In this document: piece by piece, positions 13,203 to 41,913 of the stretch
How positions within the stretch are numbered: position 1 is the first letter of the stretch
Layout: the number at the start of each line of letters is the position of its first letter
NCBI GenBank assembly: GCA_021163005.1
Contig: JAGGXP010000037.1
Coordinates: forward strand, 1-41,914
Source of the DNA: Candidatus Aenigmatarchaeota archaeon
Lineage (GTDB): Archaea; Aenigmatarchaeota; Aenigmatarchaeia; QMZP01; JAFGSV01
Reading direction: 5' to 3'
Length of the DNA stretch: 41,914 nucleotides
Notes under the pieces: generated by a model
Database searches by the model: none
Seen by the model: the letters and a program-made list of their open reading frames with translations, nothing else
What the model was told of the DNA's origin: nothing
Translations under genes and position numbers: made by a program

Positions 13203-13203
13203 C

Positions 13204-15267: not shown

Positions 15268-15271
15268 AACA

Positions 15272-17526: not shown

Positions 17527-17554
17527 GATATCTGTGTTATAATTGGTTAATCGC

Positions 17555-17566
17555 TTAAATAAAATA
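17555..17566 (-). promoter_or_regulatory. TATA-like promoter of the coiled-coil operon
   Basis: On the minus strand the AT-rich box TATTTTATTTAA lies 29-40 nt upstream of ATG 17526 in the 45-nt gap after minD. It would permit transcription of the run 17526-11037 independently of minD. Confidence 0.5.
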
Positions 17567-17571
17567 GTATG

Positions 17572-18405: not shown

Positions 18406-19074
18406 TCACCACTTCAAGTTGCACAGCAGTTTGGTCAGTTCCTCCTCGCTGCTGAACAGCGCCGGAAAGCCGTCTGAACCTCCGATTGTTGAATGAAGCT
18501 CATACATGTAATTAAGCAAATCTGCCCCTGTTCCGAGTGACAGTGCTGTGGCTATCATCTTTGACACTATCTCAGCGTTGTACTTTTTGGAGAAGGCTAT
18601 CATGTTCGAGAAGAACACGTAAAGGAATACGTGCAGGAATATATATCTTCCGTATGTTCCGAGTATGTCGCGGCTGCCCCTGTAGAGTATCCTCAGGTTG
18701 GAAAGCTCGAAGAAGTATTTCCTGTAACTTTCCATGAACGGCTGGACGTATTTCCATTTCTCTTTCACAGCAAGCTCCGGGGACCAGAAGCCGCCCAAGG
18801 TTTTCTCCTGGCCGAAAAGCCCGTAGATGTATTCGGGTATCCATTCGAACCTTGGCTTTATCCTGTTGCCCACTATGTCTATGTACCTCTGCTCTTCCAT
18901 CAGCCTGAAAAGGGGCTTTCCCAGTCCCGCCTCGTTGTGATACAGGTAATTGGTTTTGATGTCCCAGATGGTCTGTATCCTGAAGAGTGATATGCCGTCC
19001 TTTTGTCCGGCGCAGCTGAGCCATATCAGCCAGAAGTTTTTGTAGTCAGTGAGCCTTTCCTTGACTTTTCCCAT
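18406..19074 (-). CDS. Conserved-looking protein of unknown function (222 aa)
   Basis: The family is not recognised. The chain is rich in aromatic residues (Tyr, Phe, Trp). It has a helical, mostly soluble N-terminal half (MGKVKERLTDYKNFWLIWL) and a hydrophobic patch at about residues 140-160 (FLHVFLYVFFSNMIAF), possibly a buried or membrane-associated helix. It has the overall feel of a winged-helix protein, but no motif proves that. A TATA-like box at 19098-19109 lies 24-35 nt upstream. It ends 54 nt before minD and may be co-transcribed with it. Confidence 0.75.
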   Translation of the reverse strand: MGKVKERLTDYKNFWLIWLSCAGQKDGISLFRIQTIWDIKTNYLYHNEAGLGKPLFRLMEEQRYIDIVGNRIKPRFEWIPEYIYGLFGQEKTLGGFWSPELAVKEKWKYVQPFMESYRKYFFELSNLRILYRGSRDILGTYGRYIFLHVFLYVFFSNMIAFSKKYNAEIVSKMIATALSLGTGADLLNYMYELHSTIGGSDGFPALFSSEEELTKLLCNLKW

Positions 19075-25563: not shown

Positions 25564-27638
25564 TTTTTCTTCAGCAGCAACTCCTTGCTCCTTTCATATG
25601 CCCTTTTGCTGATTTCACCGTTCTCATAGGACTCCCTCAGCTTGGCGAGCATCATGACTCTCGCGTGCTTCTCATCGGCATGCTCCTTCCTTCCGCTGCC
25701 TCCTGAGCTCTCAGCGCTTTTCATCTTCTTCTCGATTTCCGCGAGTTTCATCATATTCGCTTCCTTGGCTTTCTGGTATTCTTCATCGCTTATCTCATTG
25801 TTCTTGTGGTTCTCCTCAAGTGTTGCAAGAAGCGTTTCTATTTCCTCCTTTTCATCCTGCAGGGGTGAAGTGGCTGCGGCAGGTGCCGGAGAGACAGATG
25901 CCTTTGAAGCCATCTCCTTCACCACATTGAGCTGCTCTTTTATGTTTTCAATGTCTGTCTTGCTTGCATAGTCAGCCATCCTTCTTGTAAGCTCTTCTAT
26001 GTTCTTCATGGTGTCTTCAGTCAGCGATGTCAGCTGGTCCTGCTTGACCTTGTACTCGGCAAACTCGTCCAGTTTCCTTTTTATGTCCACATATATGCTG
26101 TCAAGCTTTGATGATCTGGCCTTCATCCTCTCCTCTATCTCCTGTATCTTCTCCAGCTTCTCGCCCACATGCTTGCTGCCCTTCATGATGTTTTCAAGGC
26201 TGCCTATGTCTGTCATGAGCCCCTTTATCCTGTTCATGTTTTCGTTAAGCATCTTGCTGCTTCTTTCGAGTCTCTCGAGCCTCGTGTTTATATCCCTCAT
26301 CTGCTCGTCCCTTGTGGTGAACTCCTTCATGATTCTTGCGGTATCTACCTGGGAAACAGTGTCCTTGAGCTTGTCAAGAAGCATTTCCTCTTCCTTGGAC
26401 TTCGCCTCCCTCTGATAGACAACGGACCTGACCTCGGCAAAAGTTTCGGAAAGTCTTTGGAACTTCTCGTCGATGATGTTCTTTGACTCCTTGACGCTGT
26501 CCATGAGTGCCTTCATCCTCTCTATCTCTGTCTTCATCATTGTGAACTGCTTGTCGTAGTTGCCGACGCTTTGTGATGAGCTGTCCGCAACAGCCTTCGT
26601 ATCCCTGAGGGCATTTTCGAGTATCTCGAGCCTGCGCTCAAGCTTCTTGACGCGCTTGTCAGTTATCTCTACGTTGGCTGTATCTATGACATTTCTGAGC
26701 TTGCTCTCAATCTTCTCCTCGAGCAGCTTTATTATCGCATCAGCCCTGCTCGTGTCGCTTTCTGTTACTCCTGCTGCTTTTTCGTGTCCTGCAGGTGCGG
26801 GAGCCGCTGTGGTTTCGTGCACTGGAACAGATGACGAAGGCTGTGCTGCTGCCGGCGCTTTTTCTGTGGGAGGTGGTTTTTCCGCTTCAACAGGGGGTGC
26901 CTTTTCACCTGTAGCTTTTTCCAGCTTCTCAATCTGGTTGTTTATCTCCTTAAGCTTTTTCTCATTCTTCTCCTTTACCTCCCTGTATGTGGAATCCGGG
27001 AGGGTGGCATCCCTGTAAGAATCCTCTATGGAAGAAAGCAGCGCCTCTATCTCATCGCGCTCGGAAACGAGCTCGCTGAGAGACTTTTTTGGCATTTTTT
27101 CTGGCTTCTTTTTCTCCTGTGTCTCGGGTGGTTTCCCCGGAGCTGCATCAGAGGAGGCGGGGGTTTCAGCATTCTTTGTCTTTTCCGAAGGCGCTTCAGC
27201 AGGGGGGTTTGCATCAGCGGATGAAGTCTTGGGGGATGCCTGTTCAGGCTGCGCTTCAGGTTTCTTGTCCAACGCAGATTCGGCACTTTCAGGCTGCGCT
27301 TCGGGTTTCGGTTCTTCGGTTTTTTGCTGAGCCGCAGGCTCAGACTGTGCACTATCAGATTCGGCACTTTCAGGCTGCGCTTCTTCTACTGCATTAGACG
27401 CAGATTGTGCCTTTTCCGGTTGAGCAGCAGACTCAGATTCTGCACTATCAGGTTTGGCTTCGGTTTTCTTCTGGGCCTTTTCGGGCTTCGTTTTCTGCTG
27501 TACGTCAGGGCCTGGGCTTTTCAGCTTGTCCTCCTTTGCTGATGCTTCAGGACCTGAAAGCATGCCCAGAAGCTTTTCTTCGAGCTTCCTGTGAAGCTCC
27601 CTTTGCTCTTCACTCATTTTCTTTTTTTCCTTTTTCAT
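25560..27638 (-). CDS. Soluble coiled-coil protein with three SHOCT-like motifs (692 aa)
   Basis: Order: a short charged helix (1-35), an Ala/Glu/Pro/Ser linker (about 40-185), SHOCT-like motif 1 (about 193-230), a second linker, a long coiled coil (about 290-580), motif 2 (about 595-632) and motif 3 at the end (about 659-692, LRESYENGEISKRAYERSKE). Motifs have the pattern L..L......G.IS...Y followed by a basic helix, as in SHOCT and related short C-terminal oligomerisation domains. There is no TM helix or catalytic motif. It sits between the two giant surface genes, 13 nt after the first and overlapping the second, so it is the obvious cytoplasmic linker between them. The start could also be ATG 27617. 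Confidence 0.88.
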   Translation of the reverse strand: MKKEKKKMSEEQRELHRKLEEKLLGMLSGPEASAKEDKLKSPGPDVQQKTKPEKAQKKTEAKPDSAESESAAQPEKAQSASNAVEEAQPESAESDSAQSEPAAQQKTEEPKPEAQPESAESALDKKPEAQPEQASPKTSSADANPPAEAPSEKTKNAETPASSDAAPGKPPETQEKKKPEKMPKKSLSELVSERDEIEALLSSIEDSYRDATLPDSTYREVKEKNEKKLKEINNQIEKLEKATGEKAPPVEAEKPPPTEKAPAAAQPSSSVPVHETTAAPAPAGHEKAAGVTESDTSRADAIIKLLEEKIESKLRNVIDTANVEITDKRVKKLERRLEILENALRDTKAVADSSSQSVGNYDKQFTMMKTEIERMKALMDSVKESKNIIDEKFQRLSETFAEVRSVVYQREAKSKEEEMLLDKLKDTVSQVDTARIMKEFTTRDEQMRDINTRLERLERSSKMLNENMNRIKGLMTDIGSLENIMKGSKHVGEKLEKIQEIEERMKARSSKLDSIYVDIKRKLDEFAEYKVKQDQLTSLTEDTMKNIEELTRRMADYASKTDIENIKEQLNVVKEMASKASVSPAPAAATSPLQDEKEEIETLLATLEENHKNNEISDEEYQKAKEANMMKLAEIEKKMKSAESSGGSGRKEHADEKHARVMMLAKLRESYENGEISKRAYERSKELLLKKK

Positions 27639-27651
27639 TCTTCTTTACCCC

Positions 27652-30600
27652 CTACATGTTCTTCATCCTCGTCCTGACCGATTCCATGTAACTCTCGGCC
27701 ATTGTGAACAATCCCTGTTTCAGTTTGTCGAGAGCCAAATTGAGTTCGACCTCGACATCACCTGTCTGAACGCCTTTCTGCTTCATGGATTCAAGCTGCT
27801 TCTTTATGGCATCTGCCTCCCTGCTTATCTTTATGTATTTGTCAAGCTCCTCAGATGTTAGCCTCTTCGTGTCGTGGAGCAGCGGCCTGAAGGATACGAA
27901 CCATGGCTTTCCGTCGTTGTATGCGGCGTTCTGCACAAGTCCCGTTCCTGTGACAAGCTTCGTTATCTTTGATGCGTAATCCGGGCCGTATTTGGTCTTG
28001 ACCCTGTTTATGTCACCCTCGTACTTGGTCCTCAACTGTATCTCCGTGGATATGTTCGCCCTGATGGCTCCCTTGAAGTCCATGAGCACCTGCGATATCA
28101 GGAATATGCCTATGCCCCACTTACGGAACTCCCTTGCTGCCCTCTCAAGAACTATGTAGCCGCCCTTTCCGCCGTACTTCGGTAGCAGCCTGTGGACCTC
28201 GTCGTATATCATGAGCATTTTCATCTCCCTCGACTCGGGCAGCCTCATCGCGAACAGCGACTCCACTGTATTCCTCACGAACTTGTCCATTCCGCTCGGC
28301 GGAAGCTTTTCTGTCACAAGCACCGTCATCTCTCCCTTCTTGCTCATTATGTCTTTCCATGGTATGACCTGCTCTGGACTTTCAATGCCTATTATGTTTA
28401 CCTTGAAGCCCATCGCATCTTCAGGCTTCATGCCGAACTTCGGATACAGGTCAAGCATCGCCGGATCCTTGCATGCCCGCATGAATCCTGTCCACTGGGC
28501 TGTCGGATCTACGACAACCACAGGCACTCCCCTCTTGAGAAGCTCTTCTGAACAGACCTGAGCTGAAACAGACTTGCCTGCGCCTGTCGAACCGGCTGCT
28601 ATGCTGTGGGTTGTGAGGTCATCCAGCGTCATGTATGCCTTTATGTCTGTTTCAGCAACCTTTCCCACGAGCATCGACCGGTCTCCTGCTTTCGGAAGCT
28701 TGTTGACATCCATCGGGAAGATGTACCTCGTCTTGGCCTTTTTCTTTTTGCGGTATTTGTAGTAGAAGCTGGAGCCGAAGTAATAGCCAGGTATGATTGC
28801 AAACAGCAGCGCGTATGTTATCCAGCTGCTGAATATGCCCCTTATTATCTTGAGCGGCGGGGCTATGTATAGGACATCGAACGAGTCTATAGCATAAGCC
28901 TGCTTGGTGCCGTTCCAGTACGTCACATTCACCTCAAGGGAATACCTGCCTATGGGCGTGTCATCTGGAACGAATATGGTTTTCTTGAATGTTCTTACAT
29001 TCTCCATGCCAAGTGTCTCCTGCTCCCTGAGAACTATTCTCTCTGTGTCGAGGTGCCTCATCTCATAGGTGACCACAATGTCGTCTATCTTCGCTGTCTC
29101 GCCCATGTTGAGAAGAGTGAGCTCAAGCGAAAGGTTTGAATTGGGTTCGACTGTCTTTGTCAGCGCCTTCACCTTTACGTCAAGCAAAGGCTCCTTGGGC
29201 TTCTGGACCTTTACGGTTATCGGGGTGACATGCGTTATGTTCATGCCGCGTATCCTTGTGACAATGTCGCCTGTGTAAATACCCTCCATTGTGCTCGGAA
29301 GTGTGAAGACCTTTATCTTGATTGTGCCTGTGGAGCTTCCGCGTATGTCGATGGTCGGCTTCTCTATCATCACGAGCTCCCACACATTTCCGCGGACCTC
29401 AACGTCAGCTGTTATGGTCCCGGCAAGGTTGTTGTCTATATCTATGCTGTGTATCTCGTGTTCACCCGGCCTCAGTGTAACGAATATGAGCTGTGAATCT
29501 ATCTTTATCGGAAGTCTCGGCGCCGGCGGCGATATGGCTCCGCCTCCGCCGCCTCCTGCTCCGCCTCCGCCGCCTCCTGCTCCGCCTCCGCCGCCGGGCG
29601 GCTGCGGCGGCTGTGTAACCTCACAGTCCTGCGGACAGTTTCCTGAGGACTCACCGTAATCGTTTTCGCATTCACCGTTGCCGCATATGTATTCAGCCAC
29701 GGAATATGCTCCTGTCAGTTCAGACAGCGGCGCAGTTATTGTTTTCTGGGAAAGGCTGTAGTTCGTTCCGGAAAGTCTCGTCCAACTGTCTGCGCATCCC
29801 GAGCCCGTAACCCAGTTGCTGCAGTGGTATATGCCCAGAATGTCTGGGCTGACCATGTCTCCCTCATACGAGGAGTAGTTGAAGGAAAGCGTGGCGTTGT
29901 CGAATGTGAATGCGAATGTGTTGTTGCCTGAGGTCATGTTCTGGTTGGCTTCTGCTGTTATGGCCTCGAAAAGGCCCCTTGTGTTGTATCCAACGAGGCC
30001 GAGAACCTTTATCTTACCGAATGTCAGCGCGTTCAGTGTGTCGTAAAGTATGTCAGAGCCGTAGATGTCCAGTGTCTCGTTCCAGAACTTCACATTGAGA
30101 TCATAGGTTCCTGCATCTATCGTCTGGTTGTAGTAGCCGTTGTTAGTGGTGAAGTTGAAGTACCATCCTGCGTCGGTGTAATGAAGGCTGTAGTCCACGT
30201 CAAGCGGCGGCTTCGGGTCTGCTTCTTCCTCGTCATAGTTGAATCCATGGAATAGTATCAGCACCGACACTATGAATCCCCGGCTTGTCTTGTTCATATT
30301 GCCGGAAACGTCGTACGCAGTGGCGTTGATGACATAGTCGCCTGTCTGCGAGGTGTTGCTGAACTGGCCGAGGTAGGTGTAGGTGTCGCCCGTCCTGCTG
30401 ATGAACGTGAGCGGAAGGTCTTCCGTGAAGCCGGCATGAGTGACTGTAGCGCTGGCGTTCTTGACGCCGCCGGAGTCTGTCACATAGACGTATATGTCAG
30501 TTGTCGTGTTGGCGGACACCTTGGGTGTGACGCCTATGCTTATCTGCGGCGGGGTGGGGTCCTGATAGACCACGGATTTGTATTCCGTGTCCCAGTAGAA

Positions 30601-33600
30601 CAGGCTTATGTTCGTGCCGTTCATGGTGTAGTTCGCCGAGACGTTGAGGTCATAGGCCGTGCTCAGCGGAAGGTTGGGCGCGGTGAAGTTGAATGCCCAG
30701 TGGCCGAGCTGCTGGCTGTTAAGCATGTAGTCAAGGTAGGCATTGTAATATGCCGGCACCACATCGCCTGTGGAGTTCATGAGTGTCAGGTTTATGGTCT
30801 GGTTGCCGGGAACAGTGAAGTTGACGCCTGCCGCAACTGCGTCAACTGTGTAGTTGCTGCCGTTTGCCAGTGTTCTCGTGTCCTCCAGCTGGATGCCGTT
30901 CACGGTGAGGTTGAAGTATATCTCTATTCCGTTGAGGTTTTCAATAGTCAGGTTGAAGTATTCCAGGTATCCCTTCTCCACGATGCTCTCGTTGGTCTCG
31001 AATCCTGTGTCATTTGCCACAGCTGTTTCCAGCATCTTTGACTCGTTGACACTGCCGTTGACAAACCATGTCGTTATGTTCAGAGGTGTATCTGTGGTTC
31101 CGTCAGACAGCGTTGCATTCCAGGCAACGCTCTCGTTTGGCAGTATGGCCGTGGTCCCGTAAGTGAGGTTCACGTCAACCTGAACTGTCTTGTTGGAGGT
31201 TATGTTTATGACAGGCTGGGCTTCGGTCGGCGAGAGTATGTTTATGAAATAGGGGTGCACTGTGAGTATGAGCTCTGCGCTTCTGGTTATCTCGGTGCCT
31301 GCGGTGTTGTTGTAGCTTCTGTAGTAGGCCGTTACATTGGTTTCGCTGTATACGACCGGCGCGGTGTAGCTGATGTTGACATTCACGGGAATGCCGAGAT
31401 ATATTGGCAGCGTGCCGTTCGGGACTGCGCTGAAGTAGTCGCCGTCTCCTGGTACGGGCGAAATCCACGTGTCAACCACTGTCGGGTTCACATTGCCCGA
31501 ATTGCTCAGCGTCACTGTGCCAAGCTCACCGGCAGTGCCCTGTATGACATCGAGCTGGAGCAGGTTTGGTGTCTGAGTCCATGAAAGATTGGTGGGTATT
31601 CTCACAAACAGATCCGTGGTGTCGTAAAGCCCGCCGTCCGCTGCCGCCTCGAGGAGTCCTGAATAGGTTCCTGCCGGATAATCAACAGGTGTGTATATCT
31701 CTACTGTCACATCTGCTGTCTGGCCCGGTTCTATTGCACTTATCTTCTGCGGCCCGAATATGCTCGTGAAGTTTACGCAGGCCTCGCCTGATACACATGA
31801 AGACGTTATATTGGTTATGTTGGTATTACCTGCTGAGAGAATGGTCATGGTGGCGTTGCCGTATGTGATGTTGACTATGCCCATCTGGACGGTGACATTG
31901 TCCTCTATTATCTCTATCAGCGGGTTCGGCACGACCACAACAACAGCCTGCTCAGTGGAATTGGATGTGCTGTTGTCTATGTTGGTCCAGTAGGAGGTGA
32001 AGTTGAGTGTGTAATTGCCTGCAAGAGTGCCGTTGGGCACTGTAAGATTAAGCGGCGTCGGCACGCTCGTATTCCTGTATATGACGCTGTAGTTGAAACT
32101 GTCACCGCTGAGGTTCCAGCCTGCCGGAGCTGTCACGTTGACCGTGACGTTGTATGCGCGCGCATAGCCCGTGGTTGTGCTGAAGTCAATAGCCAGCATG
32201 GTCGAGTTGTGGATGCTGACGTTCTCCGCATAGTAGGCAGTCGCATTCGGGATGGCCAGCACTGTGGTGTTCGCCACTGCAGTGGCGTTGACCTCCTCGC
32301 ATCCCATCACGCCCTCGGTGTCGTTGGCACAGACCTTGAATGTGTAGAGCCCCGTGGTGTTCGTGGAATAGTTGAACCAGTAGTAAGAGCCGTTATTGCT
32401 CATGGGCGAAGTCGTGACGTTGCCGTCCGGCTGCGTCACGTTGACCCACGCGTAAACGACCTGCGTGTTGTCAGTTATGGTGGCGCTGACAGTCGTGTTC
32501 TCGAACAGTATCTCGAAGTGGTCCGGGTCTGCCCTCAGGTCGTTGATGTAAGGCGCGGGATTGGTTATGTTCAGCGTGAAGTTTATGTTCTTCGAGGACG
32601 GGGTGCCCGGCGTGCCCGTGTCAGTGTCCCATGATGTTATGACGACGTAGCCGTCTATGAGCCCCGTCGGGGCGTTCGCCGGTATGTCGTATCCTATGAA
32701 CATCTGGCCTGAAACCTGGCGGCCCACATCAACCGGATAGATGCCCAGCAGTGTGTTGTTGAGCTGTATGTACTGCTGGGCAGCGCCGCTCCTGTAAAAC
32801 GTGAGCGTCAGCTGCACATTGCCTGTGTTGGTGTAGTTTATCACTCCCAGCGTGCCGTTGGTGTCAAGTGGTGTGAATATCGTTCCTAGGCTGCCCGGCA
32901 CAGCTGTCCAGCTCCTGTTGGTGAGCACGGTTATGTTCAGCAGAGCCTCGTCAAATGCGGCGTTGCTGGCATTCGCCCTTATCTTCGTCCAGTAGTCTCC
33001 AGGAGGCTGTCCCTTCGGAACCTCCACATCAAGAGTCACAGTGAAGTTGTTTCCTTCCTGCACGTATCCCTGATAGTCTGGATTAATACCGAGTGTGCAT
33101 TCGGGGCAGTCCGTATGCAGGTTGCCTCCTATGTCAAAGACATTCACGTCAGTGATGGGTGTGTTTCCTGTTGAGGCCACTGTGAGGTTGCCAACACGTG
33201 TGTTTTCCCCATGCTGGACATCCTTATGCAGGTAGTCCTCGAGTATGTCAATAAGCGGGTTGGATGACACTATGACATTCACTATATCCTCTGTGAAGTT
33301 CTGCGTCTGGTCTGGGTTTGACCAGCTCGCATTGACATGGATCTGAAGAAGCCCCGGCGGCGTCTTCGCCTTGACGACTGCCTCCACCTCGAAGTAGCAT
33401 GACTCATTCGCGGCCATCTGTCCGCAGGTATAGTTGGTCAGCGGCGCACCGGTAGTTGCATTCCTGAATGTCACCTGGTCCGTAGACTCGTAAATGTCCA
33501 CAAAAACGTTATACGCATTGGGCGGTCCCTGATTTGTGAAGTTTACACTCATATTGAAGACATGGTCTTGTGTCTGGGTTATGCCGTCCGCTATTTCAGT

Positions 33601-36600
33601 GTCAGGTGAGGCGTTCAGGTCAGGTGTTATTTTTCCCCATACCGTGAAGTTGTAGAGTTCCGAAATGTTCAGGTTGTGCTCGTCGTACGGGTCCCATGCA
33701 TGTATCTCGACAAGGTAAAGTCCTCCCACAGGCGGATAGTACTGGGCCCTGAAAATGTCTTGGCTTGTATTGGTCATGTCAAGGAAGAAAGACGTGCCGT
33801 TCGGGTATGTTATGTTCGCCTTTACTTCATAAACCATGTAGTTGTCTGTGACAGTGGCTGTTATATTGGTGTAATTCAGGTTGGCCTCTATGCTGTAGTT
33901 TGGTATGACGCTGACATTGTATATCTGCGGCGGCTCTGTATCCTGTATATATATCAGTGCGTCTGCATCCGTCGTGGATGCGTTGTAAAGCAGCGTCTGG
34001 TTGTCGGTTATGTTGCACTTGAAGTTTATGTCTGTCTTGCTTTCAGGCACCCATAGCCTTGAAACATAACCTGTGCTGTTCGTATATTCCGTGCCGTTGT
34101 ATGTGTATAAAGACTGGCCCTCATACTTGTACCATATCTCTACTGGATAATTCTCTACCGGTATGCCGCCGTCGTCGTCCTCCACATAACAGGTGATGTT
34201 GAACGGAACCGGATACGGCTGTGTGCTCAGGTGTGGCGGACTTCCCCAGTAGACGCTGGCAGCTCCAGACACAGTTATAGTCACGTTCTTTGAAACGCTG
34301 TCGTAATGAGTCTTGGTTGCAGTGCTCGTGATGTTCTGCGTACCCGTCGTCATTGGATCGGGGTCTATATACTGCTCTTGCGTGCCGGCTCCGCCGACTA
34401 TGGTGAGCGGGGAGCCGCTGTTGTCATACCATGTCACGAGCGGGCTCAGGCTGCTGTTGCCGTTCTCGTCCCATATGCTTACATTACCCAAGAACCAGGC
34501 AAGGGTCTTCGATATAAGAGAGCCGTTCGCCGGTTCTGTGATGTTCATGTAGAGCATGCCTTTCACTTCAACTGTTGTTGTATTTGTTTCCGAGGGCTCG
34601 TTCGTTGACGGCTTTGTGGCATTCATGTAGATGACATAGTCCTGCGGGTATATGCTGTCTCCTGGATTGAACAGGAAGTAGCAGTAGCCGTTGCTGTCAG
34701 TGGTGCAGTTGCCAAGATAGCTTGTGGAGTTGTAGAAATGCACAACTGCATTTTCAGCATAGTCATTCGGCGGCGGCAGGTTGGCATCCTTCACCCTCGG
34801 CCTTATGTGCGTGGCATTCGGCGAGAATGAGTCATTCCTGTAAATCCATGTGTAGTTCTGCCAGATTTCTGCTATCTTCAGTGGCCTGTGTATTATGACA
34901 GTGGTCTGGTTGAGCCCGAAAGACACGTTGTAGTAAAGTGTCGTGTTGTCAGTTATGTTGCATGAAATGTTATGCCCGCCTGCTGTGTCGGTCTGGGTGT
35001 CCCAGAGCCACGTTGCTATTCCGGCGCTGTCTGTGTGGTTGCTGAGCTGCTGGATGCCGTCCTTCAGGAACGAGACCTCGTATCCTGTCAGGTTCTGCCC
35101 GGTATTGGCGTCCTTCACGTGGCATGTGACTGTCACCTCGTCGCCGGCCGATGCCTCTGTGTTGTTCACAGGCGAGATGTAGTCAACAGCCGCCCAGCCG
35201 TAGACGAGCACATTTGTCGTGTTTGTGTTGCCGTCGAAATACTGCCTGCTCGTGTTAACCCTCAGTATCTCAGGGCCGAGTGGGTAGTTGTAAGGCACCT
35301 GCCACGTCGTGTCGTATCCCGATGCTACCTGCGACCATGTCTCATTGTACCATGCAACACTGGTGTCATTTACATAAGAACTGCAGTCGTCCCTTACAAA
35401 AGCCGAAAGGTTGACTGCCGTGTTCCTGTTAATCACAGTTCCTGAAGAAGGCTGCTGGAGACTGACATACAGCTGGCCGTACACGACAAGGTCCTCGTCT
35501 GTTGTGGTGTATTCGGTTTCGTAGCAGACATCGTCCGTCTCGCCGTACCACTTCTGGACGCCTGCTGTCGAGTTGCACGTTGGATTGTAGGTTACCTGAC
35601 AGTAGCCGCCTGTCGTGGTATTGCATGGCAGACTTGTAAGCCCGGGAAGGTATTGAAGGTAAGCATTGGATGTGGCATTGGCAGGCTGTCCGGAGCCATC
35701 AAAAATCGTGATGTTCACTGTCTGGTTGCCGGGTACAGTTATGGAGGCGCCTGCCGCAACTGCGTCTGTTGTTGAGTTGGCGCCTGCCGGGATGCTCTGG
35801 TTGCTCGCCACCTGAAGGCCGTTGACTGTGAGGTTGTAGTATATTGTAGTGCCGTTGAGGTTCTCTATGGTGACGTTGAAGTATATGACGCTTCCGCTGC
35901 CTGTCACGGACTCCGTGTAATTCACCCCTGTTCCCGAAACTATGTAGACAAGATATGCATTGTACGTGGCATTGGCAGGAACGCCTGAAGTGTCAAGAAC
36001 CGTAAGGTTTATGTCCTGCAATCCCGGAAGCGTGAAGGATGCGCCTGCCGCAACTGCGTCTGTTGTTGAGTTGGCGCCTGCTGGGATGCTCTGGTTGCTC
36101 GCCACCTGAAGGCCGTTGACTGTGAGGTTGTAGTATATTGTAGTGCCGTTGAGGTTCTCTATGGTGACGTTGAAGTAGGATGGTGTACCTTCCTCAGTTA
36201 TGTCCTCACTGCGGTTGAATCCGTCATCAGTGCCTGTGTATATAATCTTGGAGGTGTTCAGCGCACTATGCATGAGTGCTGACGTGTAGTAGTCTCCGTG
36301 CTGCTTTATCCATACCAGCCCTGAAGCGTCGACAGGGTAGACACCAGCATCGTCGTCCTGTATGCGGAACGTGAGTGTTGCCTGAGGCGCTCCCTCTCTC
36401 CTGACTTCATCGCTGCTATTGGTGTCGTCTATTGTTGCAGTTATGTTGTCCGTCTGCAGCGTCAGTTCCATAAGCCCTGCGTAATATTCTAGATATGCAT
36501 TGTATGTGGCATTGGATGCGCTTCCTGATGCATCCATGATTGTGAGGTTGATTGCCTGGTCTCCGGGAAGCGTGAAGGATGCGCCTGCCGCAACTGCGTC

Positions 36601-39600
36601 TGTTGTTGAGTTGGCGCCTGCCGGGATGCTCTGGTTGCTCGCCACCTGAAGGCCGTTGACTGTGAGGTTGTAGTATATTGTAGTGCCGTTGAGGTTATCT
36701 ATGGTGATATTGTAGAAGCTCATCGGCGCATTCTCGCTGACTGGATGGGTATAATTGAGCCCACTCTCGTTCTGGGCTGTCTGGATAGCGCCGCTGTAGT
36801 ATTCCCCGGTTTCATCTGTGAAGCTGGAAACATCTGTCGTGTTGAATTTGAAGTATGCCAGCGGCCCGTTGAGATAATCCTGGCATGTGAACTGTATGTT
36901 CATATGCCCTGTGAAATACTGTGGATACTGCTCCGAGCATATTGGCGTCCACGGCAGCGTTCTCGAATGGTAGGCAGTAAGCGACCATGCCTGTGTGTCA
37001 AAGCTCTTGAGCACAGTTATGTTGTTCTCATTCTGGTCCTGGTCGTCTATGCACATATAGAAGTCGTACTGCTCTCCCCAGCCGCCTTCATAATGGTCTA
37101 TGTGCTGATCGTAAAGGTCCGGTGTGTTGCCAAGGTAGAATGCGTTCGGCTTTGTGGTGTCATTTGTCGCATAATACTGCTTGCTTATTATGACGCGCGC
37201 GTCATACCATGCCGGCGGGTATGTAGGCTGCGTCTGCCACGAGCAGTTGTACCACCCGTCACCTTCAGTCTCTGATATGCATGTATACCAGCAGAATGCC
37301 CCCGTGCAGGCATTCCTCTTTGCCTGGACAGTAAAGCTGTCCGCATTCAGAAGAGGCATTCCGCATTCGTCAACAAAGCTCGTTATGTTGACCTTGCCGC
37401 CTCTTTCGTATGATTCGCCATCCGGCCTGACTATTTCGACGTTCATGTTCGAGTAAAGCTCCCATGTGTAGACGCTTGAATTGGTGTCAGCATAATGAGT
37501 GTCGTTTGATATGCCTCCGAGCCAGTAGTGCAGGCCGACATCATAGAACGGTGAGTCAGTGCACTCCGGATCGAAGCTTATGTTCATGTAGCCGTTTGAG
37601 GTCGTGATGGACCAGCCGTCGTTGTAATAGGTTCCGTTGTAAGTGGTCCATATGTATCCTATTCCGTCTGGATCAACCGCCATGTCCCTGTCGGTGTCCC
37701 ATACGAGCAGGCTGAAGTTTATGTATTGCGTGCCTGACCTCCAGATGCTGTCCCCATCGCCGTCCACAAGACTCACAGAGACGTTGTCCTTCTCCACTGT
37801 GAAATTAGCGGCTGCTGTCTGGTCAGTGTTTGTGCACGTCCCGTAGTCGCACGCATTCTCGGCTGCAGTGAACCTGTATTCCCAGATGCCCTGGTCATCC
37901 TGGAAGAGTGTTGGTACATAAAGTGTCATGTTGACTGTCTCGTTTATAGGTGATGTCAATACAGTAGTGTTCCTTGAGACCCATATGGTGCTTCCGTATT
38001 TCCTTGTCTGCAGATTCACCGTGACATTGTCGAGATCCTCGTCCGTGACATTTACTACGAAAGTCCATGTCTCGCCCCACCCTCCTGTGTCAGTGCCTGT
38101 TTCGGAATACACCGATGGGACGGAAAGCTCAGGGCTCGTGACTATGTAGAAATGCTGTGGATAGAAAGCAGTTCCGTTGTAATAGAAATCCCTTGAGGCA
38201 ACGGAACTTGTGTTGTACCATCTTGCCTTGAGACCTGACGTGTTTATCTGGTACGGGTAGTTGCCTGACGTGTCTGTGACAGTCGAATAGCTGTAGTTTG
38301 TACCGCTTTCGTGTGTTACTGTTATGCTTATGTTGCTGTATGCTATCTGCTCGCACTGATCCACATCAATGGCATGCCCGACTAGTGTCACGTTCTCGCC
38401 GCGCTGGTAGAAATAGGGGTCAAGTGTGTCCAGCGTATGGTTGAACACGCCCATTATGAGCACGCTGAAGTTCTCCCCGGTTGTGACATTTGAGTCCTTG
38501 TAACATGAATCCTGATAGGTGCCGCCTTTCCACCTCTGGTAACCTACTGTATAATACTGGCACCAGGGATCAAAATCCAAATACAGGTAACCGCTGCTGT
38601 TTGTGGTGTTCTCGTTGAAGTCGTGGTAGGTGTAGTTCTCGCCGTCTGCTGTTACCCAGAATATGCCGTTTACGCCTGAGCCCACACTGGCATTTGCACG
38701 GTCCGTGTCGTTTATCAACAGTATGAACGGCGTGCTGGCAGTTCCACCTCTGCTGACGGTGCTGCCATTACCATAAACATATGTTACGAGCACGTCATCC
38801 TTCGTTATCGGAAGTCCCGTCTGGTTGCTGGTGTTGAACAGGTTCGTCCCATCATCCAGTTCGAAGCGGTATTCAGTTGCCGGACTTATGTCCCCGCACG
38901 TGAAGTCCGTTACTTGAATGAGGCATGTGCCGAGCCCGCCGTACACAGTGGTGTTGCCCTTGTCAAGCCAGGCAGAGCCGTTGTAAACCCAGAGTCTGCA
39001 GGAGACATTATCGTACTGCTTGTCGTCTATGTCAACGCTGTAGTTGAATGTCTCGCCCCAGCCGCCGTCGCTGTCGGCGGTGATGCTGAAATTCTCTGCC
39101 AGAGGCGGTGTGTTGTTGAGGTATATCCAGTTCCATAGTGTCGTTATATTGGTGTTGTAGTACTGTTGTCCAGAAGTCATCCTGATGCTCCAGTTGCCGC
39201 CTTTGTGGAATGAGGTGTCCCACGTGCAGTTGAACCAGCCATCGCCTTCCCTGTTCAACTGCGGGCAGGATTCCCATTGGTTGTCCGGAGAGCCAAATTC
39301 AAGGTTTGCAGTAGTTACATTCAGGATTCCCTCATTGCTGCAGTCTGTAGAGACATTGAACTTCACCACCAGAGTGTTCCCTACAGGCACGCTGACGCCT
39401 TCCGCGGGCTGCTCTATGTTGTTGTACAGCTGGCCGTATATGTAGGCATACCCATATGAACCCGGGAATGGTGTGTCCTTGTAGCACGAATCGCCGTAAG
39501 CGCCCGCCCACCATCCCTGCAGGCCTACTGAATAGCTGCAGTTGGGATTGAAGTCATGATAGAACGAGCCGTTGGCAATGGTTGATGTTACGTTGTCTAT

Positions 39601-41913
39601 TATATATGTTCCGAGGTCGCCGGGTGTAGCGTTTGTTGAGACGCGGAACACTGCCTGAACACCACTCCCGAGATGCTCGTAGTTCCTGTCGGTATCATTG
39701 AGGTAGGCGCCAAGCTTCTTGTAGTCATCCCCTGACCTGTTTATTATCGGGAAGACGCCTGTGCCGATGAAATGGGCGACCTCTGTGTCGTCCCTGTAAA
39801 TGGTGAATGTGCTGTTGGTCTCATTGGTGTAGCCCCATGTATAGGCAGTTGCGTTGAACTTGAACACTTTCGTGGAGCTTGTCTGTCCCTGAAGGTCGGA
39901 GCATGTAAAGTTATGATTCTGGAACCTGACCTGCTGGCCGGCAACTGAAGTCACATTTGTTGAGTTCCTCATCTCAAAGCTGCCTGTGACATTTATCAGT
40001 AGGGAGACATTCATCTTCTCGCCGTCCTCGTTCTTTATCCAGACATTGAACTCCCAGCTCTCGCCCCAGCCTCCGTCTCCGGCTCCGCCCTGCCAGAGTG
40101 TGGGTATGGCATTGGGAGCTGATATGAACTGCGGCACAGAGGCGAGGTAAAATGCGTCAGTGGCTGTGATATTGCTGCCGTTGTAGTAGGACCGGTTGGC
40201 CTCTACTGTTATGTTGTGCCATCCATAGTCCCAGTTCTGTGTATCGGGAACTGAGGCAGGCACTGTGCAGTTGTAGTAGCCGCTGCCTTCGTCATTCGCA
40301 AATCCTGCGCCAGGGCACCTGTAGGGAGCCACGCCCGTGGTGCTCCAGAAGACGACGTCTGAATTGTTGAGCAGCCTGCATTCATCACTTACATTGGCCC
40401 TTATCAATATGTCGTCGACTCCCTTCACAAAGGATTCATACCATGGTGATGTAAGATTTATTATCAGCGGTCCTGTGACAACAGTCCAGTTGTATATGTC
40501 AGAATACCTGTCCTGATACCACGGGTTGTTGAGCAGCCTCGCCCTCCAGTAGTGTGGGCCTATCATGTAGCTGCAGTTTATGCCGTCAGGATCAAGGTCA
40601 TTCGGATGCTGCGCTGTGAGGACTCCGGATGTTGTTGTTTTGTACGCTATCGCAAGGGTTGGTATCCTCAGCCATTCATTGTTAGCGTCGTTCTTGGTGA
40701 ACCAGAACTCACCGTTTCTAGAGTTTCCGACATCACCTCCCTTGTCAGAGTCTATGAATTTGACCTGCCATGTAAACGAGCCGGAAGAGCCGCGGGTCAC
40801 TGTGCTGCCGTTGCCGGCGACAATCTCGGCCTTGATGTCATCCTTTGTCAGAGTCACATTCTCCACGGATGTTTCATCATTGTATATGCTGTCTGTGACA
40901 TTGAACTTGTAATAGATGGGATTGTTCTGCAGGTCGTTTCCGTCGAAGTAGTTGATCAGCGTGAATGAAACGGGCGTTTCGCCAACAGCATTGACTGAAT
41001 TATTGGAATCGGCCAGCTCCCAGCTGCCGCTTACATTGAGCCACAGGTAGACGGTAAGCGTGTCGTTGTCCTCGTCAGTAACATTGGCTGTGAATGTGAA
41101 GTTCTCTCCCCAGCCGAAAGGCACGCCTCCCGGATCTCCCTGAGAGGTAACGTTCGGATATGCAATCAATGGTGTTGTTTCTATGAAGAAGGACGTCGAC
41201 GAAGTGTACGGTATGCTTATTGCAGATGGATTGTAGTACTGCTTCGAGGTGTTGACTATGGTGGTGTATGCCATCGTAGGCATACCGCTGCTGTTGAATG
41301 TGCAGTTGTAGATGCCGTTGCCTGTATGCACGGTGTTGTTGCAGTAGTAGTATTGTCCTGTGTTCGTGCTGAGCATCCTGATGGTTATGTTCTGAGTGTT
41401 GAGGTCTGTAATGTTGTTGCCGCATGTATCATTGACCTTTACCTGTATTGTCACATTGGTCCCGCTTCCCCTGAGCAGGCGTTGCCCGGCAGGGTAAAGC
41501 AGGTAGTTTGTAAGCGTGCCGTTTATGTTTACAGTGAAGTTTCCGCTCTGCTGTTTGTCGTAGTAGATGTCACTTGCCTTGGCATAAAGTGTTCTTGGGC
41601 CGGGCACGTATGAACAGTTTGGCGCGAAGTCGTAAACGGCATAACCGCTGCTGTTAGTAGTATTCAGTGTTCCCCAGTCAAGGATGCCTGTGTCGGTTTC
41701 AGCCCAGAACGTCACGTTCATGGTTAACGGCACTGACTGATTGTCAGTATCGTTTATGCGTATGACGATACGCGTGCTTTCAGTTCCGTCAGTCGTTATG
41801 TTGACAGCCGAGTTGTTGCCGGCAATCTCCGTCATGGTTATGTTGCTCGGCTCAAGCACAGGTCCGGATATCGTGCTGGTGTTGTATGTGTTGTTTGGCT
41901 CTATGTCATTCAC
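27652..41913 (-). CDS. Giant surface protein fused to a cytoplasmic HerA/VirB4-like ATPase (partial, at least 4,753 aa)
   Basis: The frame is open at the right edge, so the N-terminus and any signal peptide are missing. Visible order: five tandem modules of about 330 aa marked by GGWGE (37.0-41.9 kb); three near-identical Asn-rich modules (35.6-36.8 kb); many Ig/CARDB-like beta repeats (30-35.6 kb); a Cys-rich module ICGNGECENDYGES plus NCPQDC (about residues 4075-4101); a poly-Gly hinge (about 4105-4130); beta domains; one TM helix (about 4360-4385, ITYALLFAIIPGYYFG) followed by KYRKKKK; and then a complete ATPase of about 365 aa. Walker A is GSTGAGKS with Lys at about 4447, and Walker B is MLMIYDEVHRL at about 4566-4576. 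Positive charges after the TM place the ATPase inside the cell. It is the first visible gene of the three-gene operon. Confidence 0.92.
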   Translation of the reverse strand: MNDIEPNNTYNTSTISGPVLEPSNITMTEIAGNNSAVNITTDGTESTRIVIRINDTDNQSVPLTMNVTFWAETDTGILDWGTLNTTNSSGYAVYDFAPNCSYVPGPRTLYAKASDIYYDKQQSGNFTVNINGTLTNYLLYPAGQRLLRGSGTNVTIQVKVNDTCGNNITDLNTQNITIRMLSTNTGQYYYCNNTVHTGNGIYNCTFNSSGMPTMAYTTIVNTSKQYYNPSAISIPYTSSTSFFIETTPLIAYPNVTSQGDPGGVPFGWGENFTFTANVTDEDNDTLTVYLWLNVSGSWELADSNNSVNAVGETPVSFTLINYFDGNDLQNNPIYYKFNVTDSIYNDETSVENVTLTKDDIKAEIVAGNGSTVTRGSSGSFTWQVKFIDSDKGGDVGNSRNGEFWFTKNDANNEWLRIPTLAIAYKTTTSGVLTAQHPNDLDPDGINCSYMIGPHYWRARLLNNPWYQDRYSDIYNWTVVTGPLIINLTSPWYESFVKGVDDILIRANVSDECRLLNNSDVVFWSTTGVAPYRCPGAGFANDEGSGYYNCTVPASVPDTQNWDYGWHNITVEANRSYYNGSNITATDAFYLASVPQFISAPNAIPTLWQGGAGDGGWGESWEFNVWIKNEDGEKMNVSLLINVTGSFEMRNSTNVTSVAGQQVRFQNHNFTCSDLQGQTSSTKVFKFNATAYTWGYTNETNSTFTIYRDDTEVAHFIGTGVFPIINRSGDDYKKLGAYLNDTDRNYEHLGSGVQAVFRVSTNATPGDLGTYIIDNVTSTIANGSFYHDFNPNCSYSVGLQGWWAGAYGDSCYKDTPFPGSYGYAYIYGQLYNNIEQPAEGVSVPVGNTLVVKFNVSTDCSNEGILNVTTANLEFGSPDNQWESCPQLNREGDGWFNCTWDTSFHKGGNWSIRMTSGQQYYNTNITTLWNWIYLNNTPPLAENFSITADSDGGWGETFNYSVDIDDKQYDNVSCRLWVYNGSAWLDKGNTTVYGGLGTCLIQVTDFTCGDISPATEYRFELDDGTNLFNTSNQTGLPITKDDVLVTYVYGNGSTVSRGGTASTPFILLINDTDRANASVGSGVNGIFWVTADGENYTYHDFNENTTNSSGYLYLDFDPWCQYYTVGYQRWKGGTYQDSCYKDSNVTTGENFSVLIMGVFNHTLDTLDPYFYQRGENVTLVGHAIDVDQCEQIAYSNISITVTHESGTNYSYSTVTDTSGNYPYQINTSGLKARWYNTSSVASRDFYYNGTAFYPQHFYIVTSPELSVPSVYSETGTDTGGWGETWTFVVNVTDEDLDNVTVNLQTRKYGSTIWVSRNTTVLTSPINETVNMTLYVPTLFQDDQGIWEYRFTAAENACDYGTCTNTDQTAAANFTVEKDNVSVSLVDGDGDSIWRSGTQYINFSLLVWDTDRDMAVDPDGIGYIWTTYNGTYYNDGWSITTSNGYMNISFDPECTDSPFYDVGLHYWLGGISNDTHYADTNSSVYTWELYSNMNVEIVRPDGESYERGGKVNITSFVDECGMPLLNADSFTVQAKRNACTGAFCWYTCISETEGDGWYNCSWQTQPTYPPAWYDARVIISKQYYATNDTTKPNAFYLGNTPDLYDQHIDHYEGGWGEQYDFYMCIDDQDQNENNITVLKSFDTQAWSLTAYHSRTLPWTPICSEQYPQYFTGHMNIQFTCQDYLNGPLAYFKFNTTDVSSFTDETGEYYSGAIQTAQNESGLNYTHPVSENAPMSFYNITIDNLNGTTIYYNLTVNGLQVASNQSIPAGANSTTDAVAAGASFTLPGDQAINLTIMDASGSASNATYNAYLEYYAGLMELTLQTDNITATIDDTNSSDEVRREGAPQATLTFRIQDDDAGVYPVDASGLVWIKQHGDYYTSALMHSALNTSKIIYTGTDDGFNRSEDITEEGTPSYFNVTIENLNGTTIYYNLTVNGLQVASNQSIPAGANSTTDAVAAGASFTLPGLQDINLTVLDTSGVPANATYNAYLVYIVSGTGVNYTESVTGSGSVIYFNVTIENLNGTTIYYNLTVNGLQVASNQSIPAGANSTTDAVAAGASITVPGNQTVNITIFDGSGQPANATSNAYLQYLPGLTSLPCNTTTGGYCQVTYNPTCNSTAGVQKWYGETDDVCYETEYTTTDEDLVVYGQLYVSLQQPSSGTVINRNTAVNLSAFVRDDCSSYVNDTSVAWYNETWSQVASGYDTTWQVPYNYPLGPEILRVNTSRQYFDGNTNTTNVLVYGWAAVDYISPVNNTEASAGDEVTVTCHVKDANTGQNLTGYEVSFLKDGIQQLSNHTDSAGIATWLWDTQTDTAGGHNISCNITDNTTLYYNVSFGLNQTTVIIHRPLKIAEIWQNYTWIYRNDSFSPNATHIRPRVKDANLPPPNDYAENAVVHFYNSTSYLGNCTTDSNGYCYFLFNPGDSIYPQDYVIYMNATKPSTNEPSETNTTTVEVKGMLYMNITEPANGSLISKTLAWFLGNVSIWDENGNSSLSPLVTWYDNSGSPLTIVGGAGTQEQYIDPDPMTTGTQNITSTATKTHYDSVSKNVTITVSGAASVYWGSPPHLSTQPYPVPFNITCYVEDDDGGIPVENYPVEIWYKYEGQSLYTYNGTEYTNSTGYVSRLWVPESKTDINFKCNITDNQTLLYNASTTDADALIYIQDTEPPQIYNVSVIPNYSIEANLNYTNITATVTDNYMVYEVKANITYPNGTSFFLDMTNTSQDIFRAQYYPPVGGLYLVEIHAWDPYDEHNLNISELYNFTVWGKITPDLNASPDTEIADGITQTQDHVFNMSVNFTNQGPPNAYNVFVDIYESTDQVTFRNATTGAPLTNYTCGQMAANESCYFEVEAVVKAKTPPGLLQIHVNASWSNPDQTQNFTEDIVNVIVSSNPLIDILEDYLHKDVQHGENTRVGNLTVASTGNTPITDVNVFDIGGNLHTDCPECTLGINPDYQGYVQEGNNFTVTLDVEVPKGQPPGDYWTKIRANASNAAFDEALLNITVLTNRSWTAVPGSLGTIFTPLDTNGTLGVINYTNTGNVQLTLTFYRSGAAQQYIQLNNTLLGIYPVDVGRQVSGQMFIGYDIPANAPTGLIDGYVVITSWDTDTGTPGTPSSKNINFTLNITNPAPYINDLRADPDHFEILFENTTVSATITDNTQVVYAWVNVTQPDGNVTTSPMSNNGSYYWFNYSTNTTGLYTFKVCANDTEGVMGCEEVNATAVANTTVLAIPNATAYYAENVSIHNSTMLAIDFSTTTGYARAYNVTVNVTAPAGWNLSGDSFNYSVIYRNTSVPTPLNLTVPNGTLAGNYTLNFTSYWTNIDNSTSNSTEQAVVVVVPNPLIEIIEDNVTVQMGIVNITYGNATMTILSAGNTNITNITSSCVSGEACVNFTSIFGPQKISAIEPGQTADVTVEIYTPVDYPAGTYSGLLEAAADGGLYDTTDLFVRIPTNLSWTQTPNLLQLDVIQGTAGELGTVTLSNSGNVNPTVVDTWISPVPGDGDYFSAVPNGTLPIYLGIPVNVNISYTAPVVYSETNVTAYYRSYNNTAGTEITRSAELILTVHPYFINILSPTEAQPVINITSNKTVQVDVNLTYGTTAILPNESVAWNATLSDGTTDTPLNITTWFVNGSVNESKMLETAVANDTGFETNESIVEKGYLEYFNLTIENLNGIEIYFNLTVNGIQLEDTRTLANGSNYTVDAVAAGVNFTVPGNQTINLTLMNSTGDVVPAYYNAYLDYMLNSQQLGHWAFNFTAPNLPLSTAYDLNVSANYTMNGTNISLFYWDTEYKSVVYQDPTPPQISIGVTPKVSANTTTDIYVYVTDSGGVKNASATVTHAGFTEDLPLTFISRTGDTYTYLGQFSNTSQTGDYVINATAYDVSGNMNKTSRGFIVSVLILFHGFNYDEEEADPKPPLDVDYSLHYTDAGWYFNFTTNNGYYNQTIDAGTYDLNVKFWNETLDIYGSDILYDTLNALTFGKIKVLGLVGYNTRGLFEAITAEANQNMTSGNNTFAFTFDNATLSFNYSSYEGDMVSPDILGIYHCSNWVTGSGCADSWTRLSGTNYSLSQKTITAPLSELTGAYSVAEYICGNGECENDYGESSGNCPQDCEVTQPPQPPGGGGGAGGGGGGAGGGGGGAISPPAPRLPIKIDSQLIFVTLRPGEHEIHSIDIDNNLAGTITADVEVRGNVWELVMIEKPTIDIRGSSTGTIKIKVFTLPSTMEGIYTGDIVTRIRGMNITHVTPITVKVQKPKEPLLDVKVKALTKTVEPNSNLSLELTLLNMGETAKIDDIVVTYEMRHLDTERIVLREQETLGMENVRTFKKTIFVPDDTPIGRYSLEVNVTYWNGTKQAYAIDSFDVLYIAPPLKIIRGIFSSWITYALLFAIIPGYYFGSSFYYKYRKKKKAKTRYIFPMDVNKLPKAGDRSMLVGKVAETDIKAYMTLDDLTTHSIAAGSTGAGKSVSAQVCSEELLKRGVPVVVVDPTAQWTGFMRACKDPAMLDLYPKFGMKPEDAMGFKVNIIGIESPEQVIPWKDIMSKKGEMTVLVTEKLPPSGMDKFVRNTVESLFAMRLPESREMKMLMIYDEVHRLLPKYGGKGGYIVLERAAREFRKWGIGIFLISQVLMDFKGAIRANISTEIQLRTKYEGDINRVKTKYGPDYASKITKLVTGTGLVQNAAYNDGKPWFVSFRPLLHDTKRLTSEELDKYIKISREADAIKKQLESMKQKGVQTGDVEVELNLALDKLKQGLFTMAESYMESVRTRMKNM
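28570..28593 (-). other. Walker A of the fused ATPase
   Basis: The codons read GSTGAGKS within a longer AAGSTGAGKSVSAQ context. Together with MLMIYDEVH near 28203-28230 and the sensor stretch GIGIFLISQVL, this identifies the C-terminal domain as a HerA/VirB4/FtsK-class P-loop ATPase with intact key residues. Confidence 0.9.
29537..29597 (-). repeat. 21-nt minisatellite encoding a glycine hinge
   Basis: The 21-nt unit occurs twice exactly (29537-29557, 29558-29578) and once partly. It encodes Ala plus six Gly per unit, between the Cys-rich module and the membrane-proximal domains of the giant protein. Length may vary by slippage between strains. Confidence 0.85.
30825..30960 (-). repeat. Diverged fourth copy of the 137-nt module core
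   Basis: This stretch aligns with the three near-identical copies at 35.7-36.7 kb but with many substitutions, including amino-acid changes (NGIEIYFNLTVNGIQLED against NGTTIYYNLTVNGLQVAS). It is an older copy of the same module and a reference for how much the other three have been kept alike. Confidence 0.8.
35747..35883 (-). repeat. Near-identical 137-nt repeat, copy 1 of 3
   Basis: It encodes the core NLNGTTIYYNLTVNGLQVAS and the following NQSIPAGANSTTDAVAAGA. It matches copies 2 and 3 almost base for base, including silent sites, while flanking sequence in the same modules has diverged. Confidence 0.9.
36041..36177 (-). repeat. Near-identical 137-nt repeat, copy 2 of 3
   Basis: One mismatch to copy 1 is visible within the compared stretch (a C/T change in the Pro-Ala-Gly codons). 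The preceding 16 nt are also shared with copy 3 but not with copy 1. Confidence 0.9.
36581..36717 (-). repeat. Near-identical 137-nt repeat, copy 3 of 3
   Basis: Identical to copy 1 over most of its length, with a few changes at the end that encodes the start of the module (NITIDNLNG against NVTIENLNG). Confidence 0.9.
37000..41913 (-). repeat. Five tandem modules of about 1 kb in the giant ectodomain
   Basis: The marker GWGE with following aromatic residues recurs near 41.11, 40.07, 39.06, 38.08 and 37.08 kb, a period close to 1,000 nt (about 330 aa). Around it the same order repeats: an acidic D/N-rich strand pair, SRGG-type turns, a conserved Cys followed by a W-containing strand (C.Y..G...W), and a YKDS- or YADT-like segment. 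DNA identity between modules is low, so these are old duplications. Confidence 0.8.

Follow-up and report, generated by a model that had tools for sequence, protein, structure and literature searches.

A minus-strand gene of the analysed window (41,914 bp, the entire contig C39 of a 945-kb MAG in 43 contigs) encodes a giant protein that, by layout, is of the same kind as the nanohaloarchaeal SPEARE surface giants. In this protein a sequon-rich Ig-like stalk is followed by a Cys-rich linker and a Gly-rich linker; a single transmembrane (TM) helix then leads to an intact P-loop ATPase of the HerA type. New are its spread across two phyla, a dedicated coiled-coil partner, a second giant stalk with the partner's hairpin in its tail, and the linkage of MinD. 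Also new are the short forms found in Woesearchaeota and the occurrence of catalytically dead ATPase copies alongside active ones. The joint occurrence of stalk and ATPase had been observed in a reading of this one sequence alone (hereafter, the sequence-only reading); the observation was right and is more general than a single sequence could reveal. A function as an export, transfer or contact device is plausible. More specifically, we see about an even chance that the protein is a membrane-anchored FtsK/HerA-superfamily ring motor with giant adhesive stalks at cell-cell contacts, probably moving a polymer across the membrane.

Gene structure and membrane topology

The following features of the giant gene outside its ATPase domain were identified.

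27652..41913, minus strand: gene for the giant stalk-TM-HerA-like ATPase (4,753 residues), truncated 5' by the contig edge; architecture conserved
28846..41913, minus strand: extracellular stalk; ~4,356 residues of Ig-like/NEW3-type beta-sandwiches with 263 N-glycosylation sequons and repeat cassettes
35704..36696, minus strand: tandem repeat cassettes (residues ~1740-2070), in which 'NLNGTTIYYNLTVNGLQVASNQS' recurs nearly unchanged
31996..32178, minus strand: NPCBM_assoc/NEW3 domain (E 6.4e-9)
29620..29685, minus strand: Cys-rich module CGNGECENDYGESSGNCPQDCE (residues 4077-4098)
29518..29607, minus strand: Gly/Pro-rich hinge (residues near 4103-4132); low-pLDDT segment 363-394 of the modelled part
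28768..28845, minus strand: single TM helix, then RKKKKAKTR (inside)

The frame at 27652-41913 was found by ORF reading to be stop-free and open at the contig end. Because the window spans all of C39, the GTG 'start' at 41913 is a mere contig edge; the gene is 5'-truncated and longer than the sequence-only reading had described. When the first 700 residues were used as a query in the same genome, a match was obtained on contig C43. The C43 frame exits its contig midway through the repeat-unit type with which the window protein starts, and the first 137 residues of this frame align with positions 44-177, in the N-terminal part, of a complete relative 11,259 residues long (E 4e-8). A signal anchor is present at the N-terminus of complete relatives as well. 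We infer that C43 and C39 probably hold two pieces of one gene of at least ~6,100 residues. The missing N-terminus, whose recovery the sequence-only reading had proposed, would then be represented by the 1,372-residue C43 piece with its signal anchor. The C43 frame itself (L162; G000:C43:2-4117, minus strand) comprises 1,372 residues with the signal anchor at its start and adjoins a fused MFS/spermidine-synthase-like gene.

The protein contains 264 N-X-S/T sequons, with 259 in residues 1-4180 compared to 76 +/- 8 in shuffled sequences. Since 263 of the 264 precede the TM helix (core 4364-4380), one follows it, and RKKKKAKTR stands directly after it, the ectodomain was assigned to the outside and the ATPase to the inside, in agreement with the topology that the sequence-only reading had assumed.

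Internal stalk repeats were found by k-mers and chunk comparison. The 646 residues before the TM-ATPase part were modelled with AlphaFold2 as tandem beta-sandwiches (pLDDT 81), with the Gly-rich stretch as a disordered linker, and a PDB fold search with the stalk returned generic beta-sandwich matches only (complement, MG, and ciliary ASH-like domains). A similar Cys-rich module occurs at the matching position in two fully read relatives of a second type, type B (L072, L076). Across relatives the stalk ranges from ~250 to ~11,600 residues, with the ATPase constant. If roughly 100 residues and 3.5-4 nm per domain are assumed, the reach is estimated at ~150 nm for the visible stalk and ~400 nm for a 12,055-residue form. 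Relative to a congener, dN/dS was ~0.05 for the ATPase part and 0.16 for the stalk part.

The cytoplasmic ATPase

The ATPase domain and its motifs are located as follows.

27844..28716, minus strand: HerA-type P-loop ATPase domain
28570..28593, minus strand: Walker A GSTGAGKS (residue 4441); P-loop retained in 80 of 80 aligned copies
28198..28224, minus strand: Walker B MKMLMIYDE, then the VHRLLPKYGGKGGY loop
28108..28134, minus strand: REFRKWGIG motif, aligned with REGRKFGVG of HerA; probably supplies a trans-acting arginine

Assignment to the HerA superfamily, as put forward in the sequence-only reading, was upheld by Pfam matches of the giant protein to DUF87 (1.8e-7) and HerA_C (1.1e-6), both of which pass the cut-off, and HerA was the nearest family both by profile and by fold. 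The last 433 residues were modelled with AlphaFold2 at a pLDDT of 87.6. The best PDB match of the ATPase model was the HerA hexamer protein 4d2i (E 1.4e-13), with TM-scores to HerA of 0.45-0.49 for a query consisting of the ATPase plus the TM helix and stalk end; other fold matches were 4ag6 and 6o1w (VirB4/TraD/TcpA-type coupling ATPases). Walker B was also read as MLMIYDEVHR (residues near 4566-4575), and the loop after it, LLPKYGG, corresponds in the alignment to IPRTGG in a structurally solved HerA. The N-terminal HAS beta-barrel of HerA is absent from the AlphaFold2 model, in which ~45 residues separate the TM helix from Walker A. The HerA equivalog profile scored 19 bits against a cut-off of 970, and no match to the partner NurA was obtained among the window neighbours searched. 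After the ATPase, where a coiled coil is a feature of SPEARE-type proteins, the window protein has a short helical tail of ~60 residues; Woesearchaeota members have a few hundred extra residues there.

Each of the 80 aligned copies has the EFRKW motif, and 77 of them keep the catalytic set complete. In three Woesearchaeota stalk-ATPases with larger ectodomains (L135 in G178, L126 in G326, and L132 in G169), the Walker B catalytic Glu is replaced by Gly (DE to DG) with Walker A intact. The DG copy adjoins an active copy with a short ectodomain in G178 and G326, and in G169 an active-type copy lies on another contig. Characterised FtsK/HerA ATPases act as oligomeric rings and are mostly polymer translocases. 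Ring assembly is likely here too, because REFRKWGIG is invariant and the DG copies, two of which adjoin an active copy, retain Walker A. The invariant REFRK motif is consistent with a hexamer, and the DG copies beside active ones point to rings in which some subunits may need only to bind ATP.

Occurrence in other genomes

With the C-terminal 432 residues as a query, matches were found in 31 of 61 related genomes. A profile built from 30 relatives matched 71 copies, which are spread over 53 of 145 Aenigmatarchaeota genomes. In the phylum of the Woesearchaeota bin L070, where the end-to-end architecture is the same, matches were obtained in 39 of 193 genomes. Many assemblies break within the giant gene, so that lengths and frequencies are lower bounds. 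The stalk and ATPase, which the sequence-only reading had taken for a single polypeptide, share an uninterrupted frame in the window and the same layout in relatives, and the TM-ATPase end, for which it had proposed such a search, was found joined to other ectodomains. Two or three paralogues occur per genome, and presence is patchy.

Complete copies include ones of 8,055, 11,259, and 12,055 residues. The last of these exceeds the 9,409 aa quoted as the largest in cultivated archaea. It lies in G299 (L107-L109; G299:C23:5724-41891), and its frame starts with a winged-helix-like segment ahead of the first TM helix. Complete type-B members have ~2,950 residues and an N-terminal beta-propeller (2.4e-25 in L072). 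In the one-contig genome G034 the giant gene contains runs of N, and its apparent length of 1,528 residues is not real.

In a tree of the ATPase, most Woesearchaeota copies are separated from most Aenigmatarchaeota copies, in groups with good support; one genome, G299, was drawn with one phylum and branches in the group of the other. The Woesearchaeota ATPase protein is usually shorter (~700-1,430 residues) with a longer cytoplasmic tail. At these loci a TM-anchored Ig/PKD surface protein of ~1,000 residues usually lies upstream, and small soluble and coiled-coil proteins lie downstream. A conserved gene of ~90 residues, ribbon-helix-helix-like, was observed at L118 and 15 other Woesearchaeota loci (16 contigs), two genes upstream of the ATPase and before the surface-protein/ATPase pair.

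Two other sources were considered and rejected. An archaeal type-B copy on QNCM01000049.1 (L076/L090), in a bin labelled 'Omnitrophota', was found in only 1 of 145 Omnitrophota genomes and is probably bin contamination, so that spread to bacteria was discounted. A viral origin was discounted after viral contigs had been scanned, where the matches to HerA were all short and weak.

Conserved gene neighbourhood

The genes downstream of the giant gene in the window are listed below.

25560..27638, minus strand: partner gene, 14 bp downstream of the giant gene; encodes a cytoplasmic coiled-coil protein of 692 residues, in which three SHOCT-like hairpins occur
19249..25563, minus strand: second giant surface protein of 2,104 residues, with a signal anchor, a C-terminal TM helix, and a short cytoplasmic tail bearing the partner's SHOCT-like hairpin
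18406..19074, minus strand: conserved 222-residue protein; no Pfam match
17572..18351, minus strand: MinD/ParA-type ATPase (archaeal MinD; 4e-69); linked to the giant-gene locus in 11 contigs
11193..17257, minus strand: three coiled-coil genes downstream of MinD (15272-17257, 13204-15267, and 11193-13268)

At 31 of the 35 Aenigmatarchaeota loci, the giant gene is directly followed by one for a soluble coiled-coil partner, which shares its strand and lies no more than 160 bp away. When neighbours were clustered across 79 contigs, a coiled-coil group was recovered in 68, mostly at position +1 or +2; single linkage on coiled coils may over-merge, and this group also took in second stalks by way of the common tail. 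SHOCT-like hairpins are carried by the partner in the lineage whose stalks are largest. A profile of the hairpin matched 39 of 943 locus proteins, mostly partners and second giant stalks, the latter in their cytoplasmic tail.

MinD is missing from most of the loci examined. In the window (11193-18351, minus strand) MinD is followed by three long coiled-coil genes; a set of MinD plus coiled-coil genes was also seen in G047 and G059, apart from the giant gene (within ~20 kb), and may be a unit of its own. Among the neighbours clustered in the 79 contigs, no recurrent polytopic membrane protein was found near the giant ATPase genes. No VirB6/VirB8-like membrane partners or other T4SS parts recurred among the neighbours, no CedA/TedA-like polytopic channel or pilin was found in the neighbourhoods, and no window gene searched matched PF03135.

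Comparison with known systems

Giant surface proteins of nanohaloarchaea were named SPEARE by Hamm et al. 2019, who read the cytoplasmic part as a restriction enzyme, reported sequences like the intracellular part in Aenigmarchaeota and Woesearchaeota, and found the Antarctic SPEARE to be expressed (PMC6642349). In the reanalysis of Reva et al. 2023 these proteins (SVXNc_0300, 9,409 aa; BNXNv_0298, 8,880 aa) were described as an Ig-like stalk of ~75 domains, a TM helix, and a VirB4/TraG-like ATPase with a VirB4 homologue downstream, and a secretion straw was proposed (PMC10266531). The statement in the sequence-only reading that no characterised machine has this layout does not hold, given these published giants (PMC10266531, PMC6642349). 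The published descriptions share with the window protein a secretory N-terminus, an Ig-like stalk of thousands of residues, one TM helix near the C-terminus, and a cytosolic FtsK/HerA/VirB4-superfamily ATPase; the secretory signal was assigned to the window protein through the probable C43 piece. Of the N-terminal features associated with SPEARE, beta-propellers and laminin G, a beta-propeller is also present in type-B relatives; a Pfam search gave no match to it in the window protein or in its probable N-terminal piece. The systems differ in that the window partner is a coiled-coil protein and not a VirB4 with PF03135, and in that the window operon holds a second giant stalk and MinD.

HerA (PDB 4d2i; PF05872/PF01935) shares Walker A, Walker B, the RExRK motif, and the post-Walker B loop with the window ATPase, whereas the latter is membrane-anchored, is without the HAS barrel and an adjoining NurA-type partner, and scores far under the equivalog cut-offs. 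A HerA antiphage system was rejected, as only partial PADLOC HerA/mad8 matches were obtained and no effector partner (SIR2, DUF4297, NurA-like) was found, the coiled-coil partner standing in its place. VirB4, TraD, and TcpA are likewise membrane-linked ATPases of the FtsK/HerA superfamily, but no PF03135 domain was found in the window genes searched, no VirB6-like channel or relaxase was seen, and the ectodomain of the window protein is huge. The Ced/Ted systems of Thermoproteota (PMC9905601) have a VirB4/HerA-type ATPase, with MinD/ParA nearby in Ted; unlike these, the stalk-ATPase neighbourhoods contain no CedA/TedA-like polytopic protein or pilin. The match to CedD was partial and weak (29.7 bits compared to a cut-off of 600).

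Proposed mechanism and alternatives

In the proposed ring motor, each subunit would bear a giant glycosylated Ig-like stalk, and the ATPase domains would form a membrane ring, probably six-membered and sometimes mixed. Bundled together and with a reach of some 150 nm or more, the stalks would bind to another cell or to its coat. On the cytoplasmic side, the complex would be locked by the coiled-coil partner together with the second stalk's SHOCT-like tail, and MinD may position it. At the contact site, ATP hydrolysis would drive a polymer, either unfolded protein or nucleic acid, through the ring, and the conduit, if any, would be made by the TM helices and the ring and not by the stalk.

The ring motor is favoured because the architecture recurs over two archaeal phyla, the catalytic motifs are intact and under strong purifying selection, HerA is the nearest family in a superfamily whose characterised members are mostly polymer translocases, and the post-Walker B loop aligns with that of HerA. 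It is favoured further by the DG stalk copies, which would imply rings with ATP-binding-only subunits; by the close linkage of the partner and the hairpin that it has in common with the second stalk tail; by the linkage of MinD in 11 contigs; and by a stalk whose length varies beside a constant ATPase, as expected for adhesive reach. DPANN also have envelope-embedded attachment organelles (PMC11420986, PMC11104419), and the expression of the Antarctic SPEARE (PMC6642349) points the same way. Counting against it, no polytopic channel protein recurs, so that the path would need to be built from six single TM helices; the HAS barrel is absent and the TM-scores to HerA are only 0.45-0.49; and only about one third of Aenigmatarchaeota genomes carry the gene, a lower bound since assemblies break within it.

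The main rival is a regulated, ATP-driven adhesin without transport, in which a HerA-type ring would act as an anchor and the ATP cycle would cluster, turn over or retract the stalks by VirB4-like pulling on membrane subunits, no polymer crossing the membrane. The single TM helix without a channel partner is in keeping with this, the dead-ATPase stalk copies appear to keep ATP binding, and the hairpins common to the partner and the second stalk tail suggest a cytoplasmic scaffold. The core, however, is closest to HerA translocases, including the post-Walker B loop, and the full catalytic set is conserved in all but three of the copies. Such an adhesin is possible, at a probability well below even.

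Import of DNA by a Ced/Ted-like machine, in which the stalks would catch DNA or partner cells and a HerA-type ring would pull in DNA to feed nucleotide-poor symbionts, is unlikely. The HerA-like core and the partial CedD match speak for it, as do the MinD/ParA and HerA-like genes also contained in Ted loci (PMC9905601), but the CedD score is far under its cut-off and no CedA/VirB6-like polytopic membrane protein is among the recurrent neighbours.

A type IV secretion-type straw injecting effectors into a host, the model that Reva et al. 2023 put forward for nanohaloarchaea, shares the overall layout (PMC10266531) and was judged quite improbable for the present proteins. The downstream gene encodes a coiled-coil protein and not the PF03135 VirB4 homologue behind their case, and no other T4SS part recurs. 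The straw is not favoured, moreover, because the stalk consists of chained beta-sandwiches and has no lumen; such a rod would hardly serve as a straw.

An FtsK-like motor for cell division or chromosome segregation, with MinD as its division-site partner, belongs to the same superfamily and is suggested by the MinD linked at some loci, but is very improbable given the patchy presence, the two or three paralogues per genome, the giant and variable ectodomain, and the lack of MinD at most of the loci examined. An assembly chimera or frameshift fusing an adhesin to an unrelated ATPase, which the sequence-only reading had named as one possible refutation and which a MAG assembly cut at a repeat-rich end might suggest, was rejected as having negligible probability, since the identical junction recurs in dozens of independent genomes, is crossed by long open frames, and has purifying selection on either side.

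Possible relevance to DPANN attachment

DPANN make up a large fraction of archaeal diversity, and their mode of host attachment and exchange is unsolved. The carriers of the stalk-ATPase are tiny, probably host-dependent archaea, and the protein may take part in docking to, or exchange of material with, their hosts. With an adhesive stalk and a HerA-type motor in one polypeptide and a fixed partner gene, a defined gene set is available for tests of DPANN attachment. A description limited to one lineage, the nanohaloarchaea, is extended to two further phyla, in both of which the secretion-ATPase neighbour that the existing model leans on is missing. Envelope-embedded DPANN attachment organelles have been seen by cryo-tomography, their proteins being unknown (PMC11420986, PMC11104419). 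We tentatively suggest, as a rather unlikely proposal, that the stalk-ATPase might join with its coiled-coil partner and the second stalk to form the core of a DPANN contact organelle, in which a mixed membrane ring motor would pull or pump a polymer between symbiont and host and stalks of up to ~12,000 residues each would hold the partner cell. If true, this would give a molecular identity to organelles known so far only by tomography.

Soluble HerA-like gene of the window

A separate, soluble HerA-like ATPase of 429 aa is encoded at 4932-6221 on the minus strand (DUF87 7e-11, PADLOC HerA 9e-22). The gene is kept in two congeners at 77-82% identity, with conserved neighbours. At 8353-8826 on the minus strand lies a gene for a 157-residue protein with a pilin-like hydrophobic N-terminus (MKGQVWSFDLAVSMIIFIGAL); two congeners likewise have it close to the gene for the soluble HerA.
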